Shown here piece after piece: positions 9,081-28,440 of a stretch of DNA of 64,000 nucleotides. Positions within the stretch are counted from its first letter, which is position 1, and each line of letters opens with the position of its first letter. Below the pieces are notes generated by a model. That model made no database searches. It was not told where the DNA came from and worked only from the letters and a program-made list of their open reading frames with translations. The translations under genes and the position numbers were made by a program. The DNA comes from an uncultured Cohaesibacter sp. (GTDB taxonomy: Bacteria; Pseudomonadota; Alphaproteobacteria; Rhizobiales; Cohaesibacteraceae), in assembly GCF_963664735.1 (NCBI RefSeq), contig NZ_OY761553.1:3097001-3161000 (forward strand), in the 5' to 3' direction.

Positions 9081-9898
9081 AATACGGCTTCCTCCAACTC
9101 TGCCATGGCCTGTTTATACTGCTCTTCGTTCGGAACCTTGTGGTGCCAGGCAACATTATCAGACATAAAAGAAATGCCATTTCCCTTATTGGTGTGCGCA
9201 ACGATGCAGCGGGGCTTGTCGGCAACAACTTTACTGGCATCAAGAGCCGCGCAGATTTCTTCCATGTCGTTGCCATTGATCTCGTCAACGACCCAGCCGA
9301 ATGCTTCAACCTTGGGTGCGATAGGAATAATGTTGTTGGTGTCAGCCAAGCGAGCACCCTGCTGCAAGCGGTTGTGGTCGATAATCAGGGTAAGATTGTC
9401 CAGTTTGAACTGGGCTGCGGCCATGATCGCTTCCCAGTTGCTCCCTTCCTGCATTTCCCCGTCGCCAGTGATAACCACGGTGCGCCATGCTTCTGCACTC
9501 AGTTTGGCGGCCTTTGCCATGCCCACAGCAATGGGCAATCCGTGTCCGAGTGGACCGGTGTTTGTCTCAACGCCCGGCACCTTGTTGCGGTTGGGGTGAC
9601 CATTCAGCCGAGAATGGGGTTTGAGGAAGGTCGAGATTTCTTCTTCATCAAAAAAGCCCCGCTTGGAAAGCGTAACGTAGAGCGCCAGCGCTGCATGGCC
9701 TTTGCTGAGAATAAATCTGTCTCTCTTGGGGTTCTTGGGATTTTCCGGGTCAATGTTCAAGACTCGAAAATAAAGAGCCGTAAGGAGATCTGTTACTGAC
9801 ATTTCTCCGCCGATATGTCCGGCGCCCGCCTCAAAGACAGCGCGAAGGTCTCTCCTTCGAATTTCATTGGCCATCTTTTTCAGTTCTAAGATATCCAT
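9077..9898 (-). CDS. Transketolase, N-terminal subunit (split enzyme)
   Basis: The 273-residue protein carries the thiamine-diphosphate-binding domain: the GDGEMQEGSNWE motif near residue 143 with the matching IDHN about 28 residues on, plus the conserved His residues in SKGHAALALY and TGPLGHGLPIAVG. It pairs with the C-terminal subunit. The ATG at 9896-9898 has AAGGGAC as its ribosome site. It is the first gene of the operon (transketolase N, transketolase C, kinase, sorC). The exact 13-nt operator candidate lies 12-24 bases upstream of the ATG, touching the ribosome-binding region, so a bound repressor could block transcription or early elongation. Confidence 0.93.
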   Translation of the reverse strand: MDILELKKMANEIRRRDLRAVFEAGAGHIGGEMSVTDLLTALYFRVLNIDPENPKNPKRDRFILSKGHAALALYVTLSKRGFFDEEEISTFLKPHSRLNGHPNRNKVPGVETNTGPLGHGLPIAVGMAKAAKLSAEAWRTVVITGDGEMQEGSNWEAIMAAAQFKLDNLTLIIDHNRLQQGARLADTNNIIPIAPKVEAFGWVVDEINGNDMEEICAALDASKVVADKPRCIVAHTNKGNGISFMSDNVAWHHKVPNEEQYKQAMAELEEAVL

Positions 9899-13414: not shown

Positions 13415-16400
13415 CTACTTTTTTGAGGCAGCTCTGGAGCTGCTTAATCCCATCATGTCGCACAACTTGTCGGCACAATCTTGCGTGGACAGCATAGAAA
13501 AATCGGTCATATCGCCATAAGGGAAGAGATATCCCTTCAAAAGGGCAGCAATATGTCTAACGTAACGCTCCATTCGTTCTTCGTGATCGGCATTTGCCAA
13601 AGCGGCTGACATACATTTTTCAAGATCATCAAAGTCGTCCATCTCATAGGCAGCATGAACACCTGAAAGCGTATTTCGTCCCATCAAAACAGTTGGCTTG
13701 TCGTGCGCCAGAGAAATATAGGCCAGCGACGAGAGCAATGTCACCGTGACATCTGCAGCATTTACACAGTCGGTTGCATTGGCCTCACGCACATAAATGA
13801 GACGATCATGAGAAATCTCGAGCGGTCGGGGAAACAGATTGGGATGTGGTTTGAACAGGACCTGAAAGTCCAGTTTATCTGCAACATCCAGCAAATATTT
13901 CAACCCCTCGAACGTATCAACATAGTGAGGAGAGTGAATTTGCGCACGAGGATGATCTGCGGGCAAATTACCGGACTGCCAATCGTTCACACCAGCGTAA
14001 AAGACCGTTTTGATGCCCTTGGCCTTGCATTGCTCAAGAAGCTGTGTGGCTGCGGGCGTTCCTGCGTGAGGCTTTCTATCCAGACCTTTGCTGGAAATTT
14101 CCTCAATAACATACCGGGCCTTGCTGAAGTAAGCTTCGTCTTCAGGGCCATTTGTTTCAAGAGCAACCCCTGTGCAGTCAGATTCTGCCATCATGCCAAT
14201 GGCATCAAGGGTCATCGTGCCAGGCAGCATGCCTTCATGGATAACAGCACTCGGAATGCCTCTGCGCTCGGCAAGAGCGCGTGTTAAAATCATGAGGCTA
14301 TTCCACTGGTGCCAGACCAGAACCAAAGAAGGCTTTACGGCGCTAATGGCCGCTTCGACCTTGGCGACCTCCTCATTGGTCTGGCTTTCGACTTTCTCCC
14401 AAGCAAAGGGTCTTCTATTGAGAGCGTGCGAGAAGCCATAAAGCATGCGGCGTGCGTAATCCAAATCATAAGGATCGACCAGCCAGTTCCCCCCCTGTTG
14501 GTCAGTGGGCATCGAGGCGCTGTGTCTTGTCGCGGTTTTGTCCTTTTTGCGCGCCAAGATACTGCCTGATTTGGCATTCTGATTTTCCAGCAAGTAGCGG
14601 GCACTGAGATCTTCCAGATCATCACTAAAGAAATTGATTTCCGGAATGGCGCAACCTGCAGCTTGTTTGGCATGATGCAGGCAAATTAGCTCAATGTTGC
14701 GACGGTTCAGCTCTTGACGCAGTTGCTCAAGTGCGCGTCGTTTTTCTCCTCGCTCAATGGCATTGAGATTATGGATAACAAGCAGGATGCGCTGTTTGGC
14801 ATCCCGGATCGGCTTTTCACCCCAATATTCAATATTATTGAGCGGAGCCAGACCCTTAGCATATCTCAAAGCTTCATCTTCCTGAGACGCGATCGCACCA
14901 TTCTGCGCTTGTCCTACCGGAACCCGATATTTGATACGACGATGAACCTTATCTTGTGCGCCAGCCTTGATTAGCAGCTCTTCACCCGGTCTTGGCGCCT
15001 CATTCACAAGACTTTCTACTCTCCATTTATAGAAGAGCTTGCCGTCTGGACGAAATTTTTCATCAATGGCAGCTTTGGCAATAATCTGATTATTCCGCAA
15101 AACCTCCAGACTTTCCAGCTTGGTATCATCAGCCTGAAAACTTCCGCGCATCCAAAGAATGTGCCATTGATCATCGTAGCGATAATCATCGACCTTGAGC
15201 TGCGTGCTTTGCTTAATGTTAATGCTCTCGACAAATTTCTGAAAAATGCAGGTTTTTCCGTGCATGAGTTTAATAACGACACCCCAGTTTAGTTCACCGT
15301 CATAAGGCTGGCGGTATTCGAACCCGAAATCATCTCGACCCAAAACATTCAGGTCCTTGGCCACGTCCGGGCGAGCAAGGCCATTTTGCGCCTTGCCAAG
15401 CAATTGAAAATCCTGACTCCACACCTCGATGGTCAGTTTTCCAGGTAGCGTTATCCAGCCATCTACAACGAGCTCACCGCTATCTTCTTCATAATCGACG
15501 CTACTGACTACCCATTTAACTTCTGCGCCATCAATCGTTATCTGATCTGCTTGATCTCTGTTTGGTCGAGGGTAGAAAAGCCGATAGATGTAAAGGCCTG
15601 CTCCTTCAGCAAAGCTCTTGAGAACGCCCTTTTTACGAATGAGTGGAGCGCAAAAGCTCTCCCCAGAAAGAGCCGAGCTTGTCGGCTGCAAAAGGACAGG
15701 TTTACTACTCTCATTTGCTGATGTCTGCTTTTCATTTTCAAAGAGGCTATGCGGCTGGGCTATATCGCAAAGAGCGTCACTTGCGTCGCTTTCTTTTCCG
15801 ATCACAGGATAGTCTTGCGCCTTTTCGAACGCACCAGACAGGCTCAAACGGCCCTTCGCAATCACCTTGCCGTTTCGGACCAAAATCAGTCGCAAGAAAT
15901 TGGGATCAAAATCGGAATATCCCAGAGTATCACTAATGAAGCCACAAAAGGCTTTGACATCTCCGAAGTTGGATTTCTTGAACCGTTCATTCTTGATGCC
16001 AGCCTGTAGCCTTACCACCCTATCCTTGCGATCCATAAGGAAAAGGGTGTCATAAGATTTTCGAGGAAATACCCAACCGGAGATAATGAATTTGTCGTTA
16101 TAGCTGAATAATTTGTCAACGCCATATGCCTTGGCCGACAGCCAGGGAACCCGACAAAATGGCCGCTTCAGCTCCGAAAGCGGAAGGGTCAGCCGTTGCC
16201 CATCATGGGTAATCAGTTCCAGCTTTTGGCCGTTGATGAGCTTAAGAGCATTCTTGTTGGCAAAAGAAATAATTATGTCATAGCGCCAAGCCCCCTCATG
16301 CCAAGGCCCCTTGATGACCTGCGCAGAGAGGATATCTTTGCAATCGGATGTGACGGAGCAGAGATCTTGATCCGTCGTGAGATTGAACAACAGGTGTGGG

Positions 16401-17569
16401 CGACTATTGACAAAAATAGTCGACGCAGGGGTGATTTGACATTGATCAGCAAAGGATGAATGGGAGGCAGCCTTCAAGGAAAGGCGTTTCATCGCGTAGC
16501 CCTTGATGACTTCCTCCAATGCCTTTCCTCGTTCATCAACATCCGTCAGATAAATGACTTTTGGATCCTGCGATGTTCTTTGAGGCTCCCTTTCAAGAGC
16601 TGAAAGCAACGCTTTCTGCAAAGCCTTGATATCACCGACCGGGGCATATTCGATCAGATCCCCGCAATTCTCCCTTATAACCGGCAGATCATATGCAACG
16701 CACGGCGTGTCGCAAGCCAAAGCTTCCAGCGGAGGATAGCCGTAGCCCTCAAAATAGGACGGAAAGACCACAGCCGAAGCGCGCTTGAGAAGAACAAATT
16801 TATGAATGTCAGATAAACCGAAATAAGGTTCGATTTCGATGTCGTGCTGCTTGCCGCGATCTTTAAGCTCCCGGATAAAGGACTCCGACTGCTGCGGGTT
16901 GCCTATAATCAGACCAATCTTGTAACCGGACAATTCCGGCCCGATCAGATCCGCAATATCGCCTCCCCCTTTGTGCTTGTCGCTGGGGCGAGAGAAAAAG
17001 ACGATAAGCTTCTCGCGCGGCTGCTCCGGAACAGCCGCGCATGCAACGCTGTTTATGCTAGGCTGCCACACATCGAATGATGCTGTATACGGCAAGTCGA
17101 CATAGTAGTCTTTTGCATATTTCATGGATTCATAAGCACTGCTCAGAACCATCGCACCTTCTTTGGCGAGAAACATCCATTCACGCCATTTTTCTTCAGG
17201 GCGCTTCACCGGCGAATATGCGTTAAACCAATTGGCCGCTTCATAATTGATGAGAAAAAGCTGCGCTCCGGATTCTCGCGCAAAACGGACTGCATTCTTA
17301 TAGAGGCGCGGAAAGAAGGACATTTGAGGAGCGACAAACACCGCGTCAAAAGAGCCATCAGCTCCGACATCGAATTCCTCGTCAATTACAACCCTTACTG
17401 GATTTTCGCTACTTATTGGCGCAAGATCCTGAGCAAATATCGGCTCGTTGTTCGTTACGAAATAACAAGTATGGCCGCGGCGCGCAAGGACATGGGCAAT
17501 CATCATCGCGTGGTATCGCCCACCTGAGAAGGCGTTCTTCGGGCAGGTTGAAAAGACAGCTATTTTCAC
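13415..17569 (-). CDS. Giant bifunctional glycosyltransferase: GT4 domain + repeat modules + capsule-synthesis domain
   Basis: This is one 1384-residue chain. Residues 1 to about 380 form a GT-B glycosyltransferase of the GT4 type, opening with KIAVFSTCPKNAFSGGRYH and ending with VFPSYFEGYGYPPLEALACD, the donor-site E-x7-E region. The middle (about 400-960) has no catalytic motif but holds repeated beta-strand modules near residues 490 (FIISGWVFP) and 700 (LVVDGWITLPG...ARPDVAKD). The end (about 1000-1370) is a capsule-synthesis-like GT with FKPHPN, paralogous to the 432-residue neighbour. I place the start at the GTG at 17567-17569 because the conserved first strand begins there. An in-frame extension to 17683 exists but encodes an unlikely 38-residue leader. 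It may add two linkages in one pass. It is the first gene of the minus block. Confidence 0.82.
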   Translation of the reverse strand: MKIAVFSTCPKNAFSGGRYHAMMIAHVLARRGHTCYFVTNNEPIFAQDLAPISSENPVRVVIDEEFDVGADGSFDAVFVAPQMSFFPRLYKNAVRFARESGAQLFLINYEAANWFNAYSPVKRPEEKWREWMFLAKEGAMVLSSAYESMKYAKDYYVDLPYTASFDVWQPSINSVACAAVPEQPREKLIVFFSRPSDKHKGGGDIADLIGPELSGYKIGLIIGNPQQSESFIRELKDRGKQHDIEIEPYFGLSDIHKFVLLKRASAVVFPSYFEGYGYPPLEALACDTPCVAYDLPVIRENCGDLIEYAPVGDIKALQKALLSALEREPQRTSQDPKVIYLTDVDERGKALEEVIKGYAMKRLSLKAASHSSFADQCQITPASTIFVNSRPHLLFNLTTDQDLCSVTSDCKDILSAQVIKGPWHEGAWRYDIIISFANKNALKLINGQKLELITHDGQRLTLPLSELKRPFCRVPWLSAKAYGVDKLFSYNDKFIISGWVFPRKSYDTLFLMDRKDRVVRLQAGIKNERFKKSNFGDVKAFCGFISDTLGYSDFDPNFLRLILVRNGKVIAKGRLSLSGAFEKAQDYPVIGKESDASDALCDIAQPHSLFENEKQTSANESSKPVLLQPTSSALSGESFCAPLIRKKGVLKSFAEGAGLYIYRLFYPRPNRDQADQITIDGAEVKWVVSSVDYEEDSGELVVDGWITLPGKLTIEVWSQDFQLLGKAQNGLARPDVAKDLNVLGRDDFGFEYRQPYDGELNWGVVIKLMHGKTCIFQKFVESINIKQSTQLKVDDYRYDDQWHILWMRGSFQADDTKLESLEVLRNNQIIAKAAIDEKFRPDGKLFYKWRVESLVNEAPRPGEELLIKAGAQDKVHRRIKYRVPVGQAQNGAIASQEDEALRYAKGLAPLNNIEYWGEKPIRDAKQRILLVIHNLNAIERGEKRRALEQLRQELNRRNIELICLHHAKQAAGCAIPEINFFSDDLEDLSARYLLENQNAKSGSILARKKDKTATRHSASMPTDQQGGNWLVDPYDLDYARRMLYGFSHALNRRPFAWEKVESQTNEEVAKVEAAISAVKPSLVLVWHQWNSLMILTRALAERRGIPSAVIHEGMLPGTMTLDAIGMMAESDCTGVALETNGPEDEAYFSKARYVIEEISSKGLDRKPHAGTPAATQLLEQCKAKGIKTVFYAGVNDWQSGNLPADHPRAQIHSPHYVDTFEGLKYLLDVADKLDFQVLFKPHPNLFPRPLEISHDRLIYVREANATDCVNAADVTVTLLSSLAYISLAHDKPTVLMGRNTLSGVHAAYEMDDFDDLEKCMSAALANADHEERMERYVRHIAALLKGYLFPYGDMTDFSMLSTQDCADKLCDMMGLSSSRAASKK

Positions 17570-18172
17570 AATGAACTCGATTAGATAAAGAAAATCAGAT
17601 TTAAACAAATAATAGCTAAAGAAATTCAGGCAGAATTGCAACAGAGTGTTTTTTGAGCAGTTTTGTTGAAATATGCCCCCCAAAAGATGGTTTTTCCAAG
17701 ATTACTTGATACTTTGAAATTGCGGAATTTCGGCTATACCAGGCCGAGCGTCACCCGGCCTAAACATTGAGTATTTTACATAAAATCTTTTATCGTTTGT
17801 CTCACATGTTTGCGTTTGGAGTCAACAAATCCTGACACCAATCAGCCACGCACGTTTTAAGGGAAAGTCAATCGGATTACCACTGAAACCTGCTGGCCCG
17901 GCATAGTAATTTCAAGTCCACTTTCAGTCTGATGCCAGAATACACAAATCTACTGCGTCAATTTGGTTATTATTATTGCTGGAAAATCCATTTTGACACC
18001 TATAAAGTCCATCTAAATGCATCATACGAATGTATTAGATTACATTTTGCCGCTGGAAATAGATGCAACTCGACGTTTAATCCGGCGCGGAAATTGGGTC
18101 TTGTAAAAGCCACATAAATCGCCTAAACCAAAATTCACTTGCCTTCCCCGTATTTTAGATAAAGTTGTTTTC
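17570..18172. other. Divergent promoter region of the glycan locus
   Basis: About 600 bases separate the start of the minus glycan block from the first plus-strand gene. Both transcription units must start here. The stretch is AT-rich, and no clear -35/-10 pair, operator dyad or RNA gene could be assigned with confidence. Short reading frames inside it lack ribosome sites and family resemblance. Confidence 0.5.
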
Positions 18173-19105
18173 ATGAAAAGAGTCCTTGTTTCCAATATTA
18201 TGATGTTGAAGGAAAAACCTCGCTTTGACACCGAATTGAAGGCCATAGGATATGAGCCTGTATGGGCTGATGTCAGTCAGTTTTTAACCGAGGCAGACTG
18301 CCTCAAACTTGTTGGCGACATTGACGGCTGGCTGGCCGGCGACGACAAAATAACACACAAGGTTTTCGAGAAAGCTGGTCCACGGCTGAAAGTAATCGCA
18401 AAGTGGGGCACCGGCATTGACAGTATAGACCGAGAAGCCGCAAAAGAATTCGATGTTCCCGTTTTGAATAGTCCCGGAGCTTTTGCCAATACTGTAGCGG
18501 AAGTGGCAATACACTATATGCTTTCTCTGGCTCGCAGTCTGGTAACCATTGATCGCTCCATCCGGCGCAACGAATGGCCCAAATTTCAGGGCATCGAACT
18601 GGGAAGCGCCAAGGTCGGCGTGATTGGTTTTGGCGCCATTGGCCGTCGCATTGGCCAGCTGAGTTCTTGTTTCGGCTCTGAAGTCCATTTCTACGATCCG
18701 ATGGTCAAGGAAGTCATTTCGTTCAATGGCAAAGACATGACCCCTAGCAGCCTGGACGATATCGCCCAAAATTCCGACTTTGTCTGCTTGGCCTGTAACT
18801 ACAGCCAAGAGAGCCATCATATGATCGGAGCCGAGTTTCTTGAAAAAATGAAACCATCCGCATTTCTGGTCAATGTTGCCCGAGGCCCGCTGGTAGATGA
18901 AACAGCTCTTGTGGCCGCGCTTGAAGCAAAGAAAATCGCAGGCGCAGGCCTTGACGTTTTCGAGCAAGAGCCTCTTCCTGCAGACAGCAAATTTAGATCT
19001 ATGGAAAATGTAGTTCTGGGTAGTCATAACGCAAACAATAGCCTGACAGCTGTTGAATATGTTCATGCGAATACCTTGAAAAATCTTCAAAGTATTCTCG
19101 GCTAA
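18173..19105 (+). CDS. D-3-phosphoglycerate-dehydrogenase-like 2-hydroxyacid dehydrogenase
   Basis: The 310-residue protein has the complete D-isomer-specific 2-hydroxyacid dehydrogenase fold. The catalytic domain surrounds an NAD domain with GVIGFGAIGRRIGQ (near residue 143). The active-site Arg is in LVNVARGPLVDE, the Glu in GAGLDVFEQEPLP and the His in VLGSHNANNS. It is shorter than SerA because it lacks an ACT domain, so it is not the regulated serine-pathway enzyme. It interconverts a 2-hydroxy acid (often a sugar-acid or its phosphate) and a 2-oxo acid with NAD(P). It is the first gene of the plus block and, with the following oxidoreductase and isomerase, probably builds a sugar precursor. 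The ribosome site is weak. Confidence 0.85.
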   Translation: MKRVLVSNIMMLKEKPRFDTELKAIGYEPVWADVSQFLTEADCLKLVGDIDGWLAGDDKITHKVFEKAGPRLKVIAKWGTGIDSIDREAAKEFDVPVLNSPGAFANTVAEVAIHYMLSLARSLVTIDRSIRRNEWPKFQGIELGSAKVGVIGFGAIGRRIGQLSSCFGSEVHFYDPMVKEVISFNGKDMTPSSLDDIAQNSDFVCLACNYSQESHHMIGAEFLEKMKPSAFLVNVARGPLVDETALVAALEAKKIAGAGLDVFEQEPLPADSKFRSMENVVLGSHNANNSLTAVEYVHANTLKNLQSILG

Positions 19106-19137
19106 AGCCCGGTTTTATTTTTAAAAAGGTTTTACAT

Positions 19138-20157
19138 ATGAAGTACGGAATTATTGGTTATGGCAAAATGGGCATGATCCGCCATAACGCCATGCAAGCG
19201 GTTGGGGCTGGTCCTGCAAGCAAACTTTTTGAAATTAATGCAATCAACGAATATCAGGATTTATTGGTCAGCAATAGCGACGAGATCATCAACGATCCTG
19301 ACCTGGATGCGGTAATTATTTGTACGCCCAATTTCATGAACAAAAACCTTGCCATTGCCGCGTTGAACGCTGGCAAGCATGTTTTCTGCGAGAAGCCGCC
19401 TGCATTCAACGGCACAGAGATGCGCGAAATTATCGCTGCAGAAGAAAAAACTGACCGCATTCTGATGTATGGCTTCAACCACCGCCACCATGGTGGGTCC
19501 ATGAAAATGAAAGAAGAGATCGATAGCGGCAAGTTCGGTCGCGTTTTGTGGATGCGTGGTCGTTACGGCAAGTCGGTCGATGATGGATATTTCTCCGAGT
19601 GGCGTGCCGATCCAAAGCTGTCCGGTGGCGGCATCATGCTGGATCAGGGCATTCATATGCTGGATCTGTTTTTGCAGGTTGGCGGCGATTTCGATGAAAT
19701 GCATGCCTTCGTATCGAATATTTACTGGAATCTGCCGGGCATCGAAGACAACGTTTTTGCTATTTTCCGTAATTCCCAAACCGGCATGGCCGCTTCCTTG
19801 CATTCCACCATGACCCAATGGCGGCATCTGTTCTCCTTCGAAGTCTTCCTTGAACGCGGCTACATGGTTCTCAATGGCCTGAAAACCCCGTCCGGTACAT
19901 ATGGGGCAGAAAAGCTGACTATTGCTCAAAACCGCTCGAAAGCACCAGCGGCAACATGGGAAGACGAAGTATCCCATGTGTTCGAAGTCGACCACTCCTG
20001 GGAACATGAAATGAGGAACTTCGTGAACGCCATCGAGTCTGGCAAGGTTCCTGAGAAACGAGATTCTCACGAAGCGCTCCGCGTGATGGACATGATTGAT
20101 CGAATTTACAAAGAAGAACGTCATTCAAGTAACAATTTGCACGACAAACTCATTTGA
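19138..20157 (+). CDS. Gfo/Idh/MocA-family oxidoreductase
   Basis: The 339-residue protein starts directly with the NAD-binding strand and loop (KYGIIGYGKMGMIRHN). It has the family's catalytic-lysine motif CEKPPAF near residue 85, and the C-terminal-domain signature GGGIMLDQGIHMLDLF near residue 163, whose Asp and His complete the active site. These enzymes oxidise or reduce a sugar, inositol or nucleotide-sugar carbon with tightly bound NAD(H). The gene lies 32 bases after the hydroxyacid dehydrogenase and 23 before the SIS isomerase, so all three are in one operon. A paired dehydrogenase and Gfo/Idh enzyme is often seen in modified-sugar biosynthesis. The substrate is unknown. Confidence 0.88.
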   Translation: MKYGIIGYGKMGMIRHNAMQAVGAGPASKLFEINAINEYQDLLVSNSDEIINDPDLDAVIICTPNFMNKNLAIAALNAGKHVFCEKPPAFNGTEMREIIAAEEKTDRILMYGFNHRHHGGSMKMKEEIDSGKFGRVLWMRGRYGKSVDDGYFSEWRADPKLSGGGIMLDQGIHMLDLFLQVGGDFDEMHAFVSNIYWNLPGIEDNVFAIFRNSQTGMAASLHSTMTQWRHLFSFEVFLERGYMVLNGLKTPSGTYGAEKLTIAQNRSKAPAATWEDEVSHVFEVDHSWEHEMRNFVNAIESGKVPEKRDSHEALRVMDMIDRIYKEERHSSNNLHDKLI

Positions 20158-20180
20158 TTTAGTGATCGGAGATCGTAGTA

Positions 20181-20762
20181 ATGTCTGAGAAAATTAAGGA
20201 TTTTCTTGAGCCATACTTTGCAGAATATCAGAAGTTGGCTTTTGAACCCTCGATTTACCCAACCATTGAAGCTTTTGCTGAACTCGCCATCAAAACTCGG
20301 GAGTCCGGTAACAAGATGATGTTCGCCGGCAACGGCGCGAGCGCTTCCATCTCCGAGCATGGCGCAGTCGACTTTACCAAACAGGGTAAAGTGCGCGGGG
20401 TTACATTCCACGACCCGAACCTCATGACTTGTTTTGCCAATGACTTTGGCTATGACCATTGGGTTGCCAAAGCGGTTGAGCATTATGCTGATGACGGAGA
20501 CGTTGTCGTGCTGACGAGCGTCAGCGGCGAATCTCCCTCGGTCGTCAATGCTGCGATTTATGCAAAAAAGCGCGGCTTGAAGGTCGTCACATTCACAGGC
20601 CGCAAGCCAGACAACTCTCTGGCCTCCTACGCTGATATCAGCTTCTTTGTTGCTTCCGATGCCTATAATGTTGTCGAAAATGTTCACAGCATCTGGCTGA
20701 CCACAACCGTAGACGTTGTTATCGGCAAAGCCGTTTATGAAACCCGCGCTGTGATTTCCTAA
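20181..20762 (+). CDS. SIS-domain sugar-phosphate isomerase (GmhA-like)
   Basis: The 193 residues form a single SIS domain of the size of sedoheptulose-7-phosphate isomerase. The phosphate-binding loop is FAGNGASASISEHGAVDF, followed by TCFANDFGYDHW and the second SIS motif VLTSVSGESPSVVNAA. It lacks CBS domains, so it is unlike KdsD-type arabinose-5-phosphate isomerases. It likely isomerises a ketose phosphate to an aldose phosphate in the cytoplasm as an early step in making an activated sugar. The heptose pathway partners (HldE, GmhB) are absent from this window, so a heptose product is possible but not shown. Confidence 0.87.
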   Translation: MSEKIKDFLEPYFAEYQKLAFEPSIYPTIEAFAELAIKTRESGNKMMFAGNGASASISEHGAVDFTKQGKVRGVTFHDPNLMTCFANDFGYDHWVAKAVEHYADDGDVVVLTSVSGESPSVVNAAIYAKKRGLKVVTFTGRKPDNSLASYADISFFVASDAYNVVENVHSIWLTTTVDVVIGKAVYETRAVIS

Positions 20763-20842
20763 TTCCATAATCAAACTGTGATGGTTCGATTGTTCTCCGA
20801 CTGTATCATTGATATAGTCGGAGATGTTTTTGTTGTGAGAAT

Positions 20843-21652
20843 ATGTCTATGTCAGAAACCACTCATGGTATTTATGTTCGCAAAGAATTGACGCCACTAT
20901 CTCCAGTAGAGCTTCAAAAGGAAAACCTCTTTCCATCTCTTGCTGAGGCCTATGCCGCTGTCCTTGATGAAACATCATCGGACCAAGACTTTGGCGCAGC
21001 ATGGAAGCTGGGGGGCACAACGCCAACAACCCGCGCCGCATTCTCGGTCGAGAAATTATATTTCGGCCCCTTGCACAAAAGCGAAGTGTTGACCGCTCCC
21101 ACCAAGGCTCCGGGGTTCAAACTCTTTGAACTGAAGGGTGAGGCAGAAATTGGCCTGCGCATTGCGGAAAAAGCACAATCCTTGCTGCAAAAAAAAGATA
21201 AGCAGGCAATTCTGAATTGCCCGCTGGAAGAACTGTTTGATGCCTGGTGTGTAACCTTGGAGCTGCCGTCTTCCCCCATTACCAATTTGTCTGCATGTGG
21301 GGTGAATGCTCTCATTGCCGACCGCTGTGCACCCGGAGCAATCGTGCTGAGCCAAGCAAAGCCAATCTCAAATGATGTGCTGCAAGCATGGCAGACTTCT
21401 TCCCTGAAGATCGTCATGAATGGTCAGGCCATTGCCAATGGCGATGTTGCAGTCCTTGTCGATACACCGCAAGACTGCGCTCGCAAATTCATTGTTGAAG
21501 CCCTTGAGAACGGATTTGCGCCTGCGGCTGGTCAATGGATCTCAACTGGCGGCATCACACCATGCGTTCCTCTGGAACTCGGTGCAAAGGTTCAGGTCCA
21601 CCTTAACGAACTCGTCGTCATCGAATTCGAGGTTGGGGATGGCGCCAAATGA
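20843..21652 (+). CDS. 2-keto-4-pentenoate hydratase-like (FAH-superfamily) enzyme
   Basis: The 269 residues resemble MhpD/2-oxopent-4-enoate hydratase and decarboxylase relatives. AAWKLGGTTPTTRAAF and YFGPL appear early, an acidic metal-site stretch FELKGEAEIGLRI follows, and the second half carries GVNALIADRCAPGAIVL and WISTGGITPCVPL, the usual end of the fold. The family binds Mg2+ or Mn2+ and hydrates, decarboxylates or cleaves 2-oxo acids. In this operon of sugar enzymes it probably acts on a deoxy 2-keto sugar acid rather than on an aromatic breakdown product. It overlaps the next gene by four bases (ATGA), a sign of coupling. Two nearby ATGs (20843 and 20849) are possible starts. Confidence 0.75.
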   Translation: MSMSETTHGIYVRKELTPLSPVELQKENLFPSLAEAYAAVLDETSSDQDFGAAWKLGGTTPTTRAAFSVEKLYFGPLHKSEVLTAPTKAPGFKLFELKGEAEIGLRIAEKAQSLLQKKDKQAILNCPLEELFDAWCVTLELPSSPITNLSACGVNALIADRCAPGAIVLSQAKPISNDVLQAWQTSSLKIVMNGQAIANGDVAVLVDTPQDCARKFIVEALENGFAPAAGQWISTGGITPCVPLELGAKVQVHLNELVVIEFEVGDGAK

Positions 21653-22422
21653 GCGAACTGACCGAAAAACTGGCGCTTGTCATGCAAGAGGCAAAAACTC
21701 TTATTGAGCAGCTGGAGCCAACATCCATTGAAGTGAAGTCCAAGCTTGATTACGTCACCAATGTTGATCGCAAGCTGGATGAGTTCCTTACGAGCAGATT
21801 GCCGCAACTCACGCCCGGCATATCGGTGTTGAGTGAAGAACGTCCATTCGAGCTTGGCAAAGAAGATTTCTGGATCATCGATCCCATTGACGGTACGCAC
21901 AACATGATGACGGGCGTGCCGTTTTTTGCGGTTTGCGCCGCATTGTTCGATAAAGACGGAGCGAAACTCAGCGCTGTGTTGGACGTTGTGCCAGGCGATA
22001 TTTATGTTGCCGAGCGCGGCAAGGGAGCGACGGTTAATGGGCAACCGCTCAAACTGGAGCGACAGGCTTCGACGCTTCTGGCAGTTTCCTCAGGCGCACT
22101 GGATGCAATGAATGGTCGTCCTGAAATCTATCAGCCATTTCGAAAACTTGGCAAACTGCGCAATCTGGGAAGCCAGGCTTTGCAATTGGTCTATGTTGCA
22201 AATGGGAAATTTGGTTGTGCACTATCACAAGAAGCATGCTTTTGGGATGATGCGGCTGCGCGGCTTATTGCTCAAGAAGCCGGAGCACTTTATCACAGTT
22301 TTGCAGCGGAAAACGACGCTGACTATATGAAGCTCTGTATGTCAAAGTCACCGTTAAAGAGCCTTTGCGCCCACCCGGACCTATTCAAAGAGCTGGTTAA
22401 ACTGTTGTCGCCTCTTTGGTGA
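21649..22422 (+). CDS. Inositol-monophosphatase/CysQ-type sugar phosphatase
   Basis: The 257-residue protein shows the Mg2+-phosphatase signatures of the family: SVLSEERPFELG (metal-binding Glu), IIDPIDGTHNMMTGVPFFA (the DPIDGT motif) and a later CFWDDAAARLIAQEAGA (the WD-x-AA motif). It hydrolyses a phosphate monoester from a sugar or nucleotide in the cytoplasm. Its place just before the CMP-sugar synthetase suggests it removes phosphate from the sugar acid before activation, the role of KdsC in the Kdo pathway and of sialic-acid 9-phosphatases, although those are HAD enzymes. It is coupled to the previous gene by overlap and followed by the synthetase after 12 bases. Confidence 0.85.
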   Translation: MSELTEKLALVMQEAKTLIEQLEPTSIEVKSKLDYVTNVDRKLDEFLTSRLPQLTPGISVLSEERPFELGKEDFWIIDPIDGTHNMMTGVPFFAVCAALFDKDGAKLSAVLDVVPGDIYVAERGKGATVNGQPLKLERQASTLLAVSSGALDAMNGRPEIYQPFRKLGKLRNLGSQALQLVYVANGKFGCALSQEACFWDDAAARLIAQEAGALYHSFAAENDADYMKLCMSKSPLKSLCAHPDLFKELVKLLSPLW

Positions 22423-22434
22423 GGAATAATTGAA

Positions 22435-23124
22435 TTGGAAACGTCCATGTCTGAAAACAAGCTTATTGCCATGATCCCGGCTCGCCTCGGATCTCAACGT
22501 CTCAAAAAGAAAAACCTTGCCCCTTTGAAGGGCTCTCCACTCATCGCTCACGCCATCCGCAAATGCTTTGAAGCAAACTGTTTTGATGAAGTCTGGGTCA
22601 ACTCGGAAAGCGAAGAGATCGGAGAAATCGCACGCGCAGAAGGTGCACATTTCCATCCGCGTCCTGATGAACTGGCCAATAACGTTGCAACTTCGGAAGA
22701 TTTTGTCGCCGAGTTTTTTCAGAAACATGAATGCGAGGCCATGTTCCAAGTCCACTCGATTGCCCCTTTGTTGACTGCGCAAGAGGTCGAGGGATTTGTC
22801 GATTTCTATAAGAAAAACGAGTATGACGTCCTGCTTTCCTGCATCAATGACCAAATCGAAGTCGCCTATGAAGGCAGACCGGTCAACTTCACCTTTGCAG
22901 AAAAGACCAACAGTCAGGATCTGAAGCCTCTTCAGCGCATTACATGGTCCATTACAGCATGGCGCCGGTCCGTTTTCCTTGATGCCATTGCCAAGGGTGA
23001 GACAGCCACCTATCAGGGGCGCATCGGTTTCTATCCGGTTGGCCCTGCTTCCGGCCATGTCATCAAGACCCAACTTGATCTTGATATTGCCGCAGCACTC
23101 ATGAGTGTGACCGGTCAGGCTTAA
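22435..23124 (+). CDS. Acylneuraminate/Kdo-type cytidylyltransferase (CMP-sugar synthetase)
   Basis: The 229 residues match NeuA/KdsB-like nucleotidyltransferases. The N-terminal CTP loop is IPARLGSQRLKKKNLAPLKG, followed by PLIAHAIRKC. FQVHSIAPLLTAQEVEGF carries the second motif, and the sequence ends with KTQLDLDIAAALM. It makes a CMP-activated 2-keto sugar acid from CTP. TTG at 22435 has GAGGA 9 bases upstream; ATG at 22447 has GGAA 6 bases upstream, so both starts are possible. No NeuB-type condensing enzyme is visible in the window, so the acid may be produced elsewhere or by the unusual enzymes encoded upstream. Confidence 0.85.
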   Translation: METSMSENKLIAMIPARLGSQRLKKKNLAPLKGSPLIAHAIRKCFEANCFDEVWVNSESEEIGEIARAEGAHFHPRPDELANNVATSEDFVAEFFQKHECEAMFQVHSIAPLLTAQEVEGFVDFYKKNEYDVLLSCINDQIEVAYEGRPVNFTFAEKTNSQDLKPLQRITWSITAWRRSVFLDAIAKGETATYQGRIGFYPVGPASGHVIKTQLDLDIAAALMSVTGQA

Positions 23125-23146
23125 AAACCAATCAGGGAGCTTTGCT

Positions 23147-23854
23147 GTGTTAGGCGCAAACATCAAAGAACATCAATTTGATACTTCGCTTGATGCAGCA
23201 AGCGCTCTTGCTGCAACAGTGGCCGCCAATCTGAAGCAGGCTCTGGCAGAAAAAGACAATGCCATTCTGGCGGTGTCCGGAGGCCGGACACCGGAACTGT
23301 TGTTCAAGGCCCTGTCAGAGATTGACCTCGCTTGGGAAAAAGTCACTGTTACGCTGGTTGACGAACGGTTCGTACCAGACAGTTCTGAACGCTCCAACGC
23401 ACGATTGGTGAAAAGCGCGCTTTTGCAGAATAAAGCGCGGGGTGCCAAATTGGTTCCGTTGTACCAAGACGGCGTAGAAGCAGAAGATGTCGCAAGAAAC
23501 CCTTCATCTGACTTGCAATTCATTCTGGATAAAGGCTTCGATGCTGTCGTTCTGGGGATGGGGCCAGATGGTCACACCGCATCTTTCTTCCCGGGCGGCG
23601 ACAATCTGGAAGAAGCCACGAACCCGGAAAATCCACCAGCAATATTTGCTATGCATGCAGAGGGTGCAGGTGAGCCAAGGCTGACCTTTTCCGCGTCCGC
23701 TCTGCTCATAACCCGCAGCCTATTTTTGCAACTTGAAGGGCAAGAAAAGCAGGCAGTCTTTCAAAAAGCCATACAAGCTGGTTCAGTCTTGGATATGCCA
23801 ATTCGTGTATTCATCCACCAAGCACACAAATGCCTGGAAGTTTTCAAATGCTGA
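23147..23854 (+). CDS. 6-phosphogluconolactonase-like protein (NagB/Pgl fold)
   Basis: The 235-residue protein has the Pgl signatures VTLVDERFVPDSSERSNARL and VVLGMGPDGHTASFFPGGD, and ends with a typical Pgl tail. Pgl normally hydrolyses 6-phosphogluconolactone in the pentose phosphate pathway. Here no glucose-6-phosphate dehydrogenase or gluconate dehydrogenase is nearby. The gene sits inside a glycan operon, so it may instead open a sugar-lactone made by the Gfo/Idh oxidoreductase. The start is GTG with AGGGAG about 8 bases upstream. Its 3' end overlaps the start of the HAD gene, so translation is coupled. Confidence 0.85.
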   Translation: MLGANIKEHQFDTSLDAASALAATVAANLKQALAEKDNAILAVSGGRTPELLFKALSEIDLAWEKVTVTLVDERFVPDSSERSNARLVKSALLQNKARGAKLVPLYQDGVEAEDVARNPSSDLQFILDKGFDAVVLGMGPDGHTASFFPGGDNLEEATNPENPPAIFAMHAEGAGEPRLTFSASALLITRSLFLQLEGQEKQAVFQKAIQAGSVLDMPIRVFIHQAHKCLEVFKC

Positions 23855-25215
23855 ATTGGACGCGGCGCCATGACTTTATCAGTTTGGCGTGCCAGGCGAT
23901 CGATGATCCGGACATAACAGTCGTCAGCTTCGACATTTTCGACACGTTGCTGACGCGGCCGGTTCTGGAGCCATCGGACTTGTTCTATCTCATCGAAAAG
24001 CAGGTCAAAAGCAAAGGGCTATTGGACGATTTCGTCATCGTTCGAAAAACGGCCGAGAAAGATGCTCGGCAACAAATGCGAAAAGATGATCCTCTGTGCG
24101 AGGAACCTTCGCTTGATCAGATTTACGACTGCTTGCAAGTAAACACTGGCATTTCAAAGGTCGTATCTGAGGCAATCAAGGACATTGAAATCGAAACAGA
24201 AGCCCAATGCCTGCAATGTCGCTGGGCGATGAAGGACGTTTATGCCCATGCGCGCGCGAAGAACAAACGCATAGTCGCTGTTTCTGACAGTTATTTCTCC
24301 AAAGATTTTCTAATCAAGATCACCACTGAAGCAGGCTTTGTAGAGTTCGAGCATTTTTTTGTTTCCTCAGAATATAAACGGACAAAATCGAGTAAAAACC
24401 TCTATCCCCTGATGCTGGAAGATCTCGGCGTATCTCCTCAGCAAATTCTCCACATCGGCGACAATCTCAAGTCGGACTTCAATAACGCTCGCAAAGCGGG
24501 AATGAAAGCACTGCGCATTCCGAGCGCCGCCTACTTGTTTTTCACGCAATCCGTAAAGATTACCCCTTGGCTAATGGAAAAGACCAGCATGTCACCAGAC
24601 TATCGAGCCATGCTTGGTATGGTGATCAACAACCGCTTTGATGGTCTGCAACAAAAAAAGTGGCAAGCAAATAGTGCATTTAATAATGATGCCGAACTAT
24701 TCGGCTATCTGGTCGCGGGACCATTGCTCTATATGGGCCAACTGGGAGAAAGCCTGCTCCGTAAGGAAAGCCCCACGAACCAGTCAGAGCAACCAGATAT
24801 CTCTCAGTCATTTTCACGCGAAAACAATCCGCAGACAAACATCAAAATCCAACGCGGAGCGAAATCCTGTTTGCGCGACATGCAAACTTTGTTTCCAACG
24901 AAGCTGGATTTAGATCCCCAACTTCTATATACATTTATGGGTTATGCGATCTCGCACGGAACTCGCAAGGAGCGAAAAATTGTCAAAGAATTTGTAGCTT
25001 CTAATTCCTTGACGGATCACTTGGACGAAGCTTTCAGTTCTTACTTCCTTTTGTATCGGTGGTGCGAGCTAACAGTTTTACAACCCTTTGTTAATGCGAA
25101 CCAATATCTGCGTCTCATATATGCAGCACCGATTTTTTTTGAACAAAATGAGCATCCAATGCTAAAGCCGTTTAAGATGTTCAGAGCCATCCTTAATAGA
25201 TTACATTTGCGATAG
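23848..25215 (+). CDS. HAD-superfamily hydrolase-like protein with C-terminal helical extension
   Basis: The chain is 455 residues from ATG 23848, chosen because GGAAG lies 7 bases upstream; an earlier ATG (23830) would overlap the previous gene more deeply. The HAD motifs are visible: FDIFDTLLTRP (first nucleophile Asp, residue about 30), AVSDSYFSKDF (motif II), and HIGDNLKSDFNNARKAGM (acidic motif, residue about 203). The last 200 residues are helical and poorly recognised. This resembles the COG5610-type HAD proteins found next to glycosyltransferases, where the HAD domain may act as phosphatase or regulator of glycan assembly. It begins the second part of the plus block, before the WcbI-GSCFA fusion. 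Confidence 0.78.
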   Translation: MLNWTRRHDFISLACQAIDDPDITVVSFDIFDTLLTRPVLEPSDLFYLIEKQVKSKGLLDDFVIVRKTAEKDARQQMRKDDPLCEEPSLDQIYDCLQVNTGISKVVSEAIKDIEIETEAQCLQCRWAMKDVYAHARAKNKRIVAVSDSYFSKDFLIKITTEAGFVEFEHFFVSSEYKRTKSSKNLYPLMLEDLGVSPQQILHIGDNLKSDFNNARKAGMKALRIPSAAYLFFTQSVKITPWLMEKTSMSPDYRAMLGMVINNRFDGLQQKKWQANSAFNNDAELFGYLVAGPLLYMGQLGESLLRKESPTNQSEQPDISQSFSRENNPQTNIKIQRGAKSCLRDMQTLFPTKLDLDPQLLYTFMGYAISHGTRKERKIVKEFVASNSLTDHLDEAFSSYFLLYRWCELTVLQPFVNANQYLRLIYAAPIFFEQNEHPMLKPFKMFRAILNRLHLR

Positions 25216-25247: not shown

Positions 25248-27365
25248 ATGAAAAGTCTTAAGAAATTTATTGGATTGGGAAAGATGCTCAACAGCAATAA
25301 AATGAGCGACAGTGGCATGGCTTTGAATGGATCAGTAATTTCAGTTATTGGAAATTGCCAAACAGATAGCATTGCCAAGTATATCTCTATTCTTAATCCC
25401 CATCATAAGGTTCATCACTTTTCTTATGTTGAAGCTCTTGATCAGAAAAAGCGAAAAGAGAACGAAAAGTTACTGGAAGAATCTGACTATGTTATCGCTC
25501 AGCCGTTGCGCAGCGATAGTTTCGGGAAATTCTCCTACGATGCACTGAAGGACCGTGAGGGTTCCATTTTCATCAATGCATTTTCATTTGCAGGTTTCCA
25601 GCCGGACTGTGTTTATCTCGGTCAAAAGAAGGCGATCAACCGCTCTTCGCCCGTGGGCGATTATAATTCATCAATTGCCGTCTATGCCTATTTGAATGGG
25701 GCAAGCGTTCAAGAGACCTTGCAGCTTTACAATGAGAAGACCTACAGAAAACTGGGATTCTTTGATGTTTGGGAAGCGAATAAAACTTCGCTGATAGCGC
25801 GTAACAAGGCCTTGGGGATCGACCTGACCGATCTATTTGACACCTGGATAAAAGGCGGCCTGTTCATGCATACCGTCAATCATCCTTACGCTCATGTTTT
25901 AAGTGATATTGCTCGTCTGATCCTTGATAAAGCCAACATTGAACATAAGGATTTCAATCCGACCAAATTTCTCACGGACAACGGTGCCAATGATATTGTC
26001 TGGCCCGTTTACCCGGAAATCGGCGAGGCACTTGGGCTTGAAGGCGAGATGGTTTTCAAGGCATCCGACCGCTGGACCCCGGCCAATGAACGTCCCAAAC
26101 TTTTTGATTTGGAAGAGTTCGTTCAGAAGAGCTTCGATATTTACAATACTATCCCACGCGAAAAGATTGTCTGTCGCAGTATCGCAATGAGCCACGATGA
26201 ATCTGTCGAGATTATCGGTAATATTGTGAGCGACTATCGTCGGGCAAATGCTTCAACAAACAAACGGCAAGTCTCTTCAAGGACGAAAAATCCATATGCA
26301 GGACTTCCAGCCCACCAGTTCTGGCGCAAAAGCATTTCGCGCGTTTCCATCGCAGATGTTGATCCCGTCGTCTCAATGCCTTTCACCATTTCGACAACGG
26401 ACAGGGTTGCCACTGCGGGAAGTTGCTTTGCTCAACACATAGCTTCAAGGCTGCAGCAGCAGGACTTCAATTATTTTGTCACGGAAACGGCCCCCGAAGG
26501 CATGTCTGAAGAGCAGGCCCGCAAGCGGAACTATGGCGTATTCTCAGCACGATATGGCAACCTTTATACCACTAGACAGCTTCTGCAGCTATTTGACCGT
26601 GTCTATGGCAATTTCACTCCGATCGATAGCGTGTGGGATGGTGCAAAAGGCGGTTTTGTAGACCCGTTCCGCCCCCAGATCGAACCTGATGGATTTGCTT
26701 CCCCAGACGACGTTCTGAAGGCTCGCGAGGAGCATTTTTCAGCTGTTAGAAAAATATTCGAAGAATGCGAGATCTTCGTATTCACATTAGGGCTAACGGA
26801 AGCATGGCGCTCATCGAGGGATGGTGCCGTTTTTCCGCTTGCGCCGGGTGTTGCCGGAGGTCATCCCGGTGATGACTATGAGTTTGTAAATTTCTCGGCA
26901 GATGAAGTAACTGCGGATTTGAAACAGTTCATTGAAAAACTCAGAACAGTCAATCCAACCTGCCGCGTCTTGCTAACAGTTTCGCCCGTTCCATTGATCG
27001 CGACTTACGAGCCTCGACATGTTCTGGTATCAACGACATACAGCAAATCAGTCCTGAGAGTCGCTGCAGAAGAAGCCTGTAACAGTTTTGATAGAGTCCA
27101 TTATTTCCCGTCCTACGAAATTATTGTCGGGAACTATAATAAGGGTATCTATTATGATGACGACATGCGGTCTATTCGCAAAGAGGGCGTGGACCATGTG
27201 ATGCGCTTGTTCTTCAAACATCTTACCGATGCAGAACAAACGTCTCAGTCAGTCCCTCAACCGGAGAAGACAGAGCCTCTTGCAGAAAAGCCATCAACCA
27301 GTATGGAAGATCGTATCAGTGCTCTTGATGCTGTTGTTTGTGATGAAGAAGCGATAGATTCATAG
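25248..27365 (+). CDS. WcbI-like + GSCFA-domain fusion protein
   Basis: The 705-residue protein has two parts. Residues about 25-270 match the WcbI type of capsule protein, opening with ISVIGNCQTDSIAKYI and carrying VNHPYAHVLSDIA. Residues about 380-640 are a GSCFA domain, with TAGSCFAQHIASRL at the start, FTLGLTEAW in the middle, and VSPVPL...YSKSVLR and HYFPSYEI at the end. Both families are thought to be SGNH-like acyl-ester or acyltransfer enzymes linked to capsule assembly, but their exact reactions are poorly known. The Ser-Cys of GSCFA is the likely nucleophile region. There is no signal peptide. A similar GSCFA domain appears in two separate genes downstream, so this is the largest of three related proteins in one operon. 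Confidence 0.8.
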   Translation: MKSLKKFIGLGKMLNSNKMSDSGMALNGSVISVIGNCQTDSIAKYISILNPHHKVHHFSYVEALDQKKRKENEKLLEESDYVIAQPLRSDSFGKFSYDALKDREGSIFINAFSFAGFQPDCVYLGQKKAINRSSPVGDYNSSIAVYAYLNGASVQETLQLYNEKTYRKLGFFDVWEANKTSLIARNKALGIDLTDLFDTWIKGGLFMHTVNHPYAHVLSDIARLILDKANIEHKDFNPTKFLTDNGANDIVWPVYPEIGEALGLEGEMVFKASDRWTPANERPKLFDLEEFVQKSFDIYNTIPREKIVCRSIAMSHDESVEIIGNIVSDYRRANASTNKRQVSSRTKNPYAGLPAHQFWRKSISRVSIADVDPVVSMPFTISTTDRVATAGSCFAQHIASRLQQQDFNYFVTETAPEGMSEEQARKRNYGVFSARYGNLYTTRQLLQLFDRVYGNFTPIDSVWDGAKGGFVDPFRPQIEPDGFASPDDVLKAREEHFSAVRKIFEECEIFVFTLGLTEAWRSSRDGAVFPLAPGVAGGHPGDDYEFVNFSADEVTADLKQFIEKLRTVNPTCRVLLTVSPVPLIATYEPRHVLVSTTYSKSVLRVAAEEACNSFDRVHYFPSYEIIVGNYNKGIYYDDDMRSIRKEGVDHVMRLFFKHLTDAEQTSQSVPQPEKTEPLAEKPSTSMEDRISALDAVVCDEEAIDS

Positions 27366-27618: not shown

Positions 27619-28440
27619 TTGTCCTTTTTTAGTGATGAAAAATTAAATAAAATCCGCAATTTGGCTGACCAGGAAGCCAAGATTAATGCACTTAGCGGTT
27701 TAGGCAAGAATGAAACTTGCTATATTCTTGCAAGCGGGCCGTCCTTGAAGGAATATACTCCTGACGAACTTCAGAAATTACTGAAAGGCAAGCTTGTTAT
27801 TGTATTGAAACAAGCGTTTCAATATGTACCATCGGTTTGCGACTTCTTGATCTTGAACAGTTGGAATTTTCAGCGCTACGACTATTCGGAGCGTTATCCT
27901 CTGGTCGTACGTGAAGAGGGACCAAACGATCCGCCGGTATTTGGCGGTGAAGACGTGCTGCTCAAACTTGCCAATGTTAATGATATAACCGAGCAGTTGG
28001 CACGAAAGAAAAACTTCGACGATTACGTGTTCTCCAAACAACTCGAACGACCTTGGGGACCTGGTGTACTTTATGAAATCGGCTTTTATTTAGCCGTGCA
28101 TTTAGGGGTCAAGAAGATTGTAACACTTGGCTGGGATGTCGGCGTCAAGTCCTCTCCCGTCATGCCGCATTTTTACGAGACAAGAGACTCCAAGCGCACA
28201 CGATTATTGGCTAAAGCGAAAACTATCGTGGATCTCAAGGAACGAAATCTGTTTTTGCACGAAAATGATATTCTCTACAATAAACCGAGAATTATTCCGG
28301 AAGAGGTTGATGTCTGTGCTGCAGTCAGTGGCGATTGGTATCATTGGTTGACAAAGCTCGGGATTGCATTGGAAGTGGTTTCAACCCAGTCTATGGTAAG
28401 CGAAGAAATTCCACGCACCCGTCTCGAAGATACAATTTAG
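27619..28440 (+). CDS. DUF115/MptE-like protein
   Basis: The 273 residues show an N-terminal ETCYILASGPSLKEYTPDELQ motif, which resembles the GPSL motif of the MptE/DUF115 (6-hydroxymethylpterin pyrophosphokinase-like) family, and later IVTLGWDVGV. DUF115 proteins occur in flagellar or surface-glycan clusters and are often glycosyltransferase-like. I select the TTG start at 27619 because GAGAGGA lies 8 bases upstream and no ATG fits. It sits between the WcbI-GSCFA protein and the broken glycosyltransferase. A role in glycan assembly is inferred from place only. Confidence 0.6.
   Translation: MSFFSDEKLNKIRNLADQEAKINALSGLGKNETCYILASGPSLKEYTPDELQKLLKGKLVIVLKQAFQYVPSVCDFLILNSWNFQRYDYSERYPLVVREEGPNDPPVFGGEDVLLKLANVNDITEQLARKKNFDDYVFSKQLERPWGPGVLYEIGFYLAVHLGVKKIVTLGWDVGVKSSPVMPHFYETRDSKRTRLLAKAKTIVDLKERNLFLHENDILYNKPRIIPEEVDVCAAVSGDWYHWLTKLGIALEVVSTQSMVSEEIPRTRLEDTI

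Follow-up and report, generated by a model that had tools for sequence, protein, structure and literature searches.

The stretch of DNA analysed here, called the window below, comprises 64,000 nucleotides from an uncultured Cohaesibacter sp. (Alphaproteobacteria, Rhizobiales; assembly GCF_963664735.1, contig NZ_OY761553.1, positions 3,097,001 to 3,161,000), and our subject is a run of seven genes that includes a cytidylyltransferase of the CMP-sugar synthetase fold (Table 1; its short names are used throughout). An earlier note, made from the sequence, had singled out seven open reading frames (ORFs) at 18173-23854 as an unusual enzyme set; all seven are present, belong to the families it named, lie on the + strand and contain no internal stops. 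They are tightly packed, as it said, with intergenic gaps of, in order, 32, 23, 80, -4, 12 and 22 bp, but the partial overlap that it described is limited, within the seven, to the FAH/IMPase pair; the 3' end of Pgl further overlaps the next gene (at 23830) by 25 bp. The cytidylyltransferase more likely starts at the ATG at 22447, as judged by alignment with its relatives.

Table 1. Genes of the seven-gene run and of its surroundings, in window coordinates.
Feature	Position	Strand	Basis
D-2-hydroxyacid dehydrogenase (HADH)	18173..19105	+	PF02826/PF00389
Gfo/Idh/MocA oxidoreductase (GFO)	19138..20157	+	PF01408/PF22725 (GFO_IDH_MocA)
SIS-domain sugar-phosphate isomerase, GmhA-like (SIS)	20181..20762	+	PF13580
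MhpD/NahK-like FAH-superfamily protein P0004, hydratase/tautomerase type, optional member (FAH)	20843..21652	+	profile and structure model
IMPase-family phosphatase (IMPase)	21649..22422	+	PF00459 (Inositol_P)
CMP-sugar-synthetase-fold cytidylyltransferase	22435..23124	+	PF02348 (CTP_transf_3), 82.7 bits
6-phosphogluconolactonase, accessory lactonase (Pgl)	23147..23854	+	TIGR01198; Glucosamine_iso/Pgl
HAD-hydrolase-like conserved neighbour	23830..25215	+	PF00702; 33% identical protein after module in S. fredii (L002)
WcbI and GSCFA fusion, conserved neighbour	25248..27365	+	PF18588, PF08885; 58% identical protein after S. fredii module
1422-aa protein with GT4-type glycosyltransferase domain	13415..17683	-	PF00534; 48% identical protein beside S. 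fredii module
432-aa protein, conserved neighbour	10355..11653	-	no Pfam; 46% identical protein beside S. fredii module
Possible Maf_flag10/MptE-like glycosyltransferase (weak)	27619..28440	+	PF01973 24.5 bits, below 34.6

The first relatives, in Sinorhizobium fredii SMH12 and Leisingera aquaemixtae, came from a tblastn search of plasmids with P0004, and 33 loci were obtained by scanning 84,980 species genomes with an alignment of three cytidylyltransferase sequences; that scan relied on two peptide patterns only and missed more distant copies of the module. The 33 close loci counted below are the scan loci plus the window, L002 and L003, minus three distant SAR11 loci (L062-L064, 30-36% identical in the cytidylyltransferase) that are excluded from every such count; L003 and L036, both included, are one species. 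The loci measure 3.8 to 31 kb, and that of Reichenbachiella faecimaris (L056) was extended with L089 so that 55 kb was viewed. Misses at contig edges, in L033 (HADH; GFO cut), L035 and L047 (FAH) and L055, are not absences. HADH is present in 30 of the 33 close loci, GFO in 28, SIS in 28, FAH in 27 and IMPase in 31. The complete set of six accompanies 22 of the 33, bearing out the idea of a conserved set around the cytidylyltransferase, and the five genes other than FAH occur together in 26. L049 lacks HADH and L054 lacks SIS within the locus, while L045 carries the cytidylyltransferase alone, besides a 39-bit GFO match.

Conservation of gene order, proposed earlier as a check, is found in part of the relatives. 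S. fredii has the six genes in the order of the window (51-83% identical) with Pgl absent, Pseudovibrio and Rubrimonas repeat this order and Labrenzia does so partly, whereas roseobacters carry the same genes in a different order with FAH divergently transcribed. The arrangement in R. faecimaris is SIS-GFO-HADH-YhcH-IMP...CMP-Pgl, with GFO and SIS directly upstream of the locus as first fetched and a YhcH-family gene (PF04074) between HADH and IMPase. The hosts include roseobacters, other Alphaproteobacteria, SAR86, a metagenome-assembled genome (MAG) of the Opitutaceae and Reichenbachiella. Pairwise distances in the six families correlate (Mantel rho 0.64-0.87 with L003 omitted; 0 of 500 permutations reached the observed value for each of the 15 pairs), as expected for genes that travel together, although shared species history contributes. 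The grouping of these genes, recurring in other taxa with correlated distances, is not due to chance. The cytidylyltransferase gene was not found (E <= 1e-30) in 17 other genomes of the same genus, one of them 64% complete, and was present in 2 of the 101 genomes of the same search overall. The module region has a G+C content of 0.45-0.49 against 0.52-0.53 in its flanks, which is consistent with an acquired surface-polysaccharide island. The three SAR11 loci contain a different recurring set (aminotransferase, DAO-type FAD oxidoreductase, Ldh_2 dehydrogenase) around their distant cytidylyltransferase relative, possibly another uncharacterised CMP-sugar route.

Each core protein belongs to a well-populated family while standing apart from its named members. 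The best NCBIfam match of HADH is PGDH, under all cut-offs, with GhrB and PdxB weaker; its PDB matches include phosphoglycerate dehydrogenase, glyoxylate reductase and a probable 2-ketogluconate reductase, and R239, E268 and H287 (script numbering) are invariant in 30 loci. The PDB matches of GFO are distant: 1,5-anhydro-D-fructose reductase is the best, and glucose-fructose and aldose-aldose oxidoreductases, which oxidise C1, are among them; the EKP lysine and the DQGIH motif are invariant in 28 loci. Thirteen of the 17 PDB matches of the SIS isomerase are named phosphoheptose isomerase, the protein scoring 75.9 bits against the 209.45-bit equivalog cut-off of the gmhA model TIGR00441. In the phosphatase, E65, D80, D83 and D202 (script numbering) are invariant in 31 loci. 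None of the six reaches an NCBIfam cut-off, and Pgl is the only one of the seven to pass one (TIGR01198, 167.9 against 124.45 bits); hence no core protein is a recognised orthologue in the NCBIfam library.

The routes to 3-deoxy-D-manno-octulosonic acid (Kdo), sialic, legionaminic and pseudaminic acids join phosphoenolpyruvate (PEP) to an aldose. The claim that the set has no condensing enzyme of the NeuB/KdsA type holds for the window and for the 33 close loci, neither of which yielded a NeuB, KdsA or DHDPS-family gene; the sole NeuB match across the loci is in the distant SAR11 relative L063, which also has a second, NeuA-like gene. When the search for a condensing enzyme was widened to the whole window genome, as the earlier note had advised, NeuB (PF03102) was not found and a single KdsA-type gene (PF00793) appeared at 645 kb, about 2.5 Mb from the module; since it is 72.5% identical to KdsA of a Maricaulis genome, we take it to be the housekeeping KdsA. 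NeuB is absent from 21 of 30 module genomes, and in the remaining nine its contig differs in size from the module contig. The R. faecimaris genome has no NeuB and no KdsA over the cut-off (two weak pieces that share a 386-aa frame, at 31.1 and 26.3 bits), and its one clear CTP_transf_3 gene is that of the module, next to a marginal match of 22.4 bits. As judged by these profile searches, it is one genome with the module cytidylyltransferase and without a recognisable NeuB or KdsA. The Kdo pathway itself is apparently absent from this species, which lacks NeuB, an over-cut-off KdsA and a second clear CTP_transf_3.

The seventh gene, Pgl, which had been counted as a member of the set, was rejected as a core gene: it occurs in 5 of the 33 loci (window, L034, L054, L056 and L059), lying directly 3' of the cytidylyltransferase gene in the window and overlapping it in R. 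faecimaris. The five proteins are 25-47% identical, and that of the window is nearest (34%) to a Pgl-family protein of its own genome, which has two further PF01182 genes (at 1693332 and 173936); on these grounds the copies look separately recruited. At the density of the window genome, about 0.4 Pgl-family genes would be expected by chance in 33 loci of 20 kb. A second kind of lactonase, SGL/SMP-30 (PF08450; 223 bits in one representative), accompanies 17 of the 33 loci, and Pgl and SGL together accompany none. That one module is accompanied by lactonases of two kinds favours a lactone intermediate, and thus oxidation at C1; this gives the lactonase a role of which the earlier interpretation had made no use.

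The cytidylyltransferase is a clear member of its superfamily (82.7 bits against the 22.6-bit cut-off of PF02348) that stays under all NCBIfam cut-offs: the KdsB models give 56.4 and 52.7 bits against 255 and 193, and the PseF model 77.2 against 205.7, so that the NeuA/PseF cut-off is missed. The nearest structures to its model (pLDDT 93.7) are murine CMAS (Foldseek TM 0.83), the Vibrio cholerae CMP-NeuAc synthetase, the CMP-Kdn synthetase PpNeuA and the Aeromonas caviae CMP-Pse synthetase. In all 36 sequences aligned, the N-terminal R17, S20, R22, K26 and N27 are invariant. The window genome also has two KdsB-like genes, one at 2516 kb and a second at about 4787 kb (L080 1387-2169), where a neighbour resembles a histidine phosphatase by eye.

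Neither Pfam nor NCBIfam recognises P0004; an alignment profile relates it to MhpD/2-keto-4-pentenoate hydratase (E 1.4e-31), and the best Foldseek matches of its AlphaFold model (pLDDT 94.4) are MhpD, NahK, HpcG and a related decarboxylase-hydratase, with identities to the listed structures of MhpD, NahK and HpcG not exceeding 20%. K55, E100, E102, E140 and D160 are invariant in 29 rows, and we presume the conserved glutamates to be metal ligands. The protein thus keeps, in its model, the MhpD/FAH-superfamily fold and the conserved glutamates, and hydratase activity is predicted. Of the six families FAH has the fewest invariant columns (10), with 18-49% identity of the module rows to P0004, and three modules (L056 with L089, L058 and L061) carry the other five genes but lack this one. 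The genomes of L056, L058 (a MAG of unknown completeness) and L045 yielded no homologue, and that of L061 has one distant match of 56.9 bits. A paralogue in the window genome (39% identical to P0004, with relatives in 8 of the 17 other genomes of the genus) adjoins sugar-acid genes, namely a 2-keto-3-deoxy-galactonokinase, a PfkB kinase and another 2-hydroxyacid dehydrogenase. FAH is best seen as a tailoring enzyme acting on 2-keto sugar acids rather than as a condensing enzyme.

The surroundings of the module give indications of where its product may go. Maf_flag10-type proteins are encoded in 25 of the 33 loci, as detected with hidden Markov models (HMMs) that we built from multi-domain proteins; against PF01973 itself, some of their representatives score over and some below the cut-off. 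A PF01973 protein over the cut-off occurs anywhere in the genome in 21 of the 25 module genomes examined and in 4 of 14 controls, all archaea. A Capsule_synth protein, which we take to be of the KpsS/C type, lies just upstream of the S. fredii module, and a methyltransferase-like protein with a Pfam match below the cut-off occurs in 21 of the 33 loci. Flagellin Maf transferases belong to pfam01973 and use CMP-nonulosonates as donors, according to one report (PMC11339370). The SMH12 capsule has no entry in the available portion of the KPS-structure table of another (PMC4881576). E. coli YhcH, the relative of the R. faecimaris neighbour, is described in a third as opening cyclic 2-keto acids such as N-acetylneuraminic acid (Neu5Ac) and KDN (PMC8141875).

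We tentatively favour, at a confidence slightly under an even balance, the reading that oxidation, and not condensation, is how the six genes give rise to an ulosonic acid, a CMP-activated 2-keto sugar acid destined for a surface glycan. It is built on the gene families, their conservation, the absence of NeuB and KdsA from the loci, the recurrence of lactonases and the motif residues, from which we infer each reaction, the sequence of steps and both the identity and the chain length of the substrate. In the most economical scheme that draws on the recurring genes, (i) the SIS isomerase would convert a ketose phosphate into an aldose phosphate, sedoheptulose-7-phosphate to heptose-7-phosphate being the likeliest pair because the isomerase is GmhA-like, (ii) GFO would oxidise C1 of the aldose or its phosphate to give an aldonolactone, (iii) a lactonase (Pgl in the window, SGL in roseobacters) or spontaneous hydrolysis would yield the aldonate, (iv) HADH would oxidise C2 of the aldonate or its phosphate to the 2-keto-aldonate or its phosphate, (v) the MhpD-like enzyme, where present, would tailor this compound by tautomerisation, C3 epimerisation or dehydration, (vi) IMPase would remove the phosphate ahead of CMP transfer and (vii) the cytidylyltransferase would form the CMP sugar, the substrate of a transferase (Maf-like, KpsS-like or another). 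The net change would turn the CH2OH-CO- end of a ketose into COOH-CO-. In a more specific version, which we consider somewhat less likely, a widespread and horizontally moved module would start directly from a ketose phosphate and, through isomerisation followed by two oxidations, arrive at a CMP-activated ulosonic acid of the non-3-deoxy kind (a heptulosonic acid configured like sedoheptulose would be an example), without PEP-dependent condensation and with a lysine in place of a catalytic metal site.

Several observations weigh against this oxidative route, whose activities and product are predictions from genes. The most serious concerns the last step: I109 and K211, invariant in all 36 cytidylyltransferase sequences, align with aspartates in the two KdsB-like proteins of the window genome. 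D95 and D219 of the Aquifex aeolicus KdsB bind Mg-A, an ion thought to activate the C2 hydroxyl, according to the relevant study (PMC3149649), and the aligned aspartates are taken to be these ligands. With both replaced, a C2 hydroxyl as acceptor is not secure; the invariant lysine where KdsB has a metal-binding aspartate may indicate an unusual acceptor, and either it stands in for the metal or the acceptor differs; this is the main caution in naming the product a CMP-ulosonate. At the second step, Gfo/Idh enzymes often oxidise C3, not C1; the 17 SGL loci are all of roseobacter type, two of them from one species, and are not independent, and neither lactonase is in view in 11 of the 33 loci. 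By our HMMs, a Maf-type protein is lacking in the four loci that share the window gene order (window, L002, L034, L065), and the genomes of the window, L034 and L065 have no PF01973 protein over the cut-off, so that the Maf link rests on other branches. Tailoring is no more than a candidate role for FAH within the module. Finally, separate contigs in drafts and MAGs are no proof of distance between NeuB and the module; 29 of the 30 module genomes have a KdsA over the cut-off, so that an origin from Kdo-8-phosphate is countered only by R. faecimaris, and this species may still encode a 3-deoxy-arabino-heptulosonate-7-phosphate (DAHP) synthase or an unrelated aldolase elsewhere.

The near-universal KdsA is indeed what an alternative scenario would build on, in which the module remodels a housekeeping condensation product (Kdo-8-phosphate from KdsA, DAHP from DAHP synthase or 2-keto-3-deoxy-6-phosphogluconate (KDPG) from Edd) by oxidation, isomerisation or epimerisation before dephosphorylation by IMPase and transfer of CMP. 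Such starting material would be at hand, DAHP and KDPG being common metabolites and the window genome having its own KdsA-type gene; IMPase would fill the role of KdsC, and Pgl suits the KDPG branch. We nevertheless consider this unlikely, as R. faecimaris carries the module with no KdsA-family match above 31.1 bits, GmhA-like isomerases act on ketose and aldose phosphates and not on 2-keto acids, and SGL in place of Pgl in roseobacters points to a general lactone step and not to the KDPG branch. The I109/K211 substitution, together with the failure to reach any KdsB or PseF cut-off, lends itself to another scenario that we regard as similarly improbable, namely that the acceptor is a phosphate or other group on a sugar acid, the product being linked to CDP, or to CMP in some other way, and the invariant lysine replacing Mg-A. 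IspD, a phosphate-acceptor enzyme, is in line with it but appears among the Foldseek matches from rank 40 down, whereas the best relatives in structure and sequence are CMP-sialate, CMP-Kdn and CMP-Pse synthetases; IMPase suggests that phosphate is removed ahead of activation, and the Maf-like, Capsule_synth and YhcH neighbours in relatives point to 2-keto acid sugars.

The idea with which the module was first put forward, that the MhpD/FAH-type hydratase performs the carbon-carbon chemistry of NeuB or KdsA, draws on the retained MhpD-type fold and Lys/Glu residues, on the frequency of FAH among the loci and on the fact that some FAH-superfamily enzymes break C-C bonds. As a general substitute for condensation the hydratase was rejected, since three modules (L056, L058, L061) with the other five genes do without it, two of them in genomes in which no homologue was found; its low conservation and its divergent transcription in roseobacters point the same way. 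In R. faecimaris the module stands without the hydratase, without NeuB and without an over-cut-off KdsA; the hydratase therefore does not supply the missing condensation, and we consider this idea very improbable. The earlier observation of the gene set is confirmed and its interpretation is half right. It is quite unlikely, if less so than the hydratase idea, that the module represents a nucleotide-sugar pathway already known, which we did not recognise or which is described outside the open literature. The enzymes come from common families and most subscription papers lie outside the PMC full texts covered, but among the matches listed there no title or abstract start describes the gene set, and all six core proteins fall below the NCBIfam cut-offs.

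Conserved neighbours extend the resemblance between the window and S. fredii beyond the module, relatives of the 1422-aa and 432-aa proteins preceding it there and relatives of the HAD-like and WcbI-GSCFA proteins following it. One GT4-type region is all that Pfam recognises in the 1422-aa protein. A PF01973 search of the whole window genome gave no match, and the candidate of Table 1 is a weak one. The polysaccharide island holds three GSCFA proteins, the WcbI fusion (25248-27365) and those at 31379-32362 and 33988-35040. A split transketolase pair (8124-9898) was rejected as a part of the module, as no relative locus has it; the pair sits with an ABC sugar transporter, an FGGY kinase and a sugar-binding-domain regulator, and the whole of 1410-9898 appears as a sugar-catabolism locus in which a two-subunit transketolase adjoins these genes. 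On the other side, a Cobalamin riboswitch (35268-35475, + strand, 120.7 bits) lies upstream of a CitMHS/TrkA_C transporter gene (35872-37698), an unexpected target for a B12 switch, and of a ZnuA-type metal ABC transporter.

Six neighbouring genes thus recur in unrelated, mostly marine bacteria and, to judge from their families, may provide an activated acidic sugar for cell-surface polymers. If the oxidative route is correct, dispensing with condensation would be a new way to CMP sugars and a second entry into CMP-sugar-acid metabolism, roseobacters and other marine bacteria would perhaps carry a surface sugar not described so far, and it would be explained why R. faecimaris has a CMP-sugar-synthetase-like gene without NeuB or an over-cut-off KdsA. 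The proposed steps are few and each is separately testable.

Among known systems, the Kdo pathway (KdsD-KdsA-KdsC-KdsB) resembles the module in its SIS isomerase, its phosphatase, its CTP_transf_3 enzyme and CMP activation after dephosphorylation. The module differs in having no KdsA, a GmhA-like SIS protein, two dehydrogenases and lactonases in addition, an IMPase-family phosphatase where the Kdo pathway uses the HAD-type KdsC (no KdsC model is among the NCBIfam matches of the HAD-like neighbour at 23830-25215) and I109/K211 where KdsB has aspartates. The nonulosonic acid pathways (sialic, legionaminic, pseudaminic) share the NeuA/PseF-like fold of the cytidylyltransferase and the Maf_flag10-type proteins that lie beside many copies of the module, but no NeuB occurs in the 33 close loci and no UDP-amino-sugar steps were noticed. 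The GmhA heptose pathway has a comparable isomerase, making a C7 sugar phosphate plausible, whereas the module has no heptose kinase or GDP/ADP-heptose enzyme among its genes and carries a CTP_transf_3 enzyme instead. The MhpD/NahK hydratase-decarboxylase family shares with P0004 the fold, the conserved lysine and three glutamates; identity is 20% or less, and no aromatic catabolism genes were noticed near P0004. The PdxB and 2-ketogluconate reductase family of vitamin B6 and ketogluconate metabolism acts on aldonate phosphates or 2-keto-aldonates and, belonging like HADH to the D-2-hydroxyacid dehydrogenases, offers a precedent for the proposed oxidation at C2; the HADH of the module differs from PdxB and GhrB in scoring below both cut-offs and in being linked to a cytidylyltransferase and surface polysaccharide genes.

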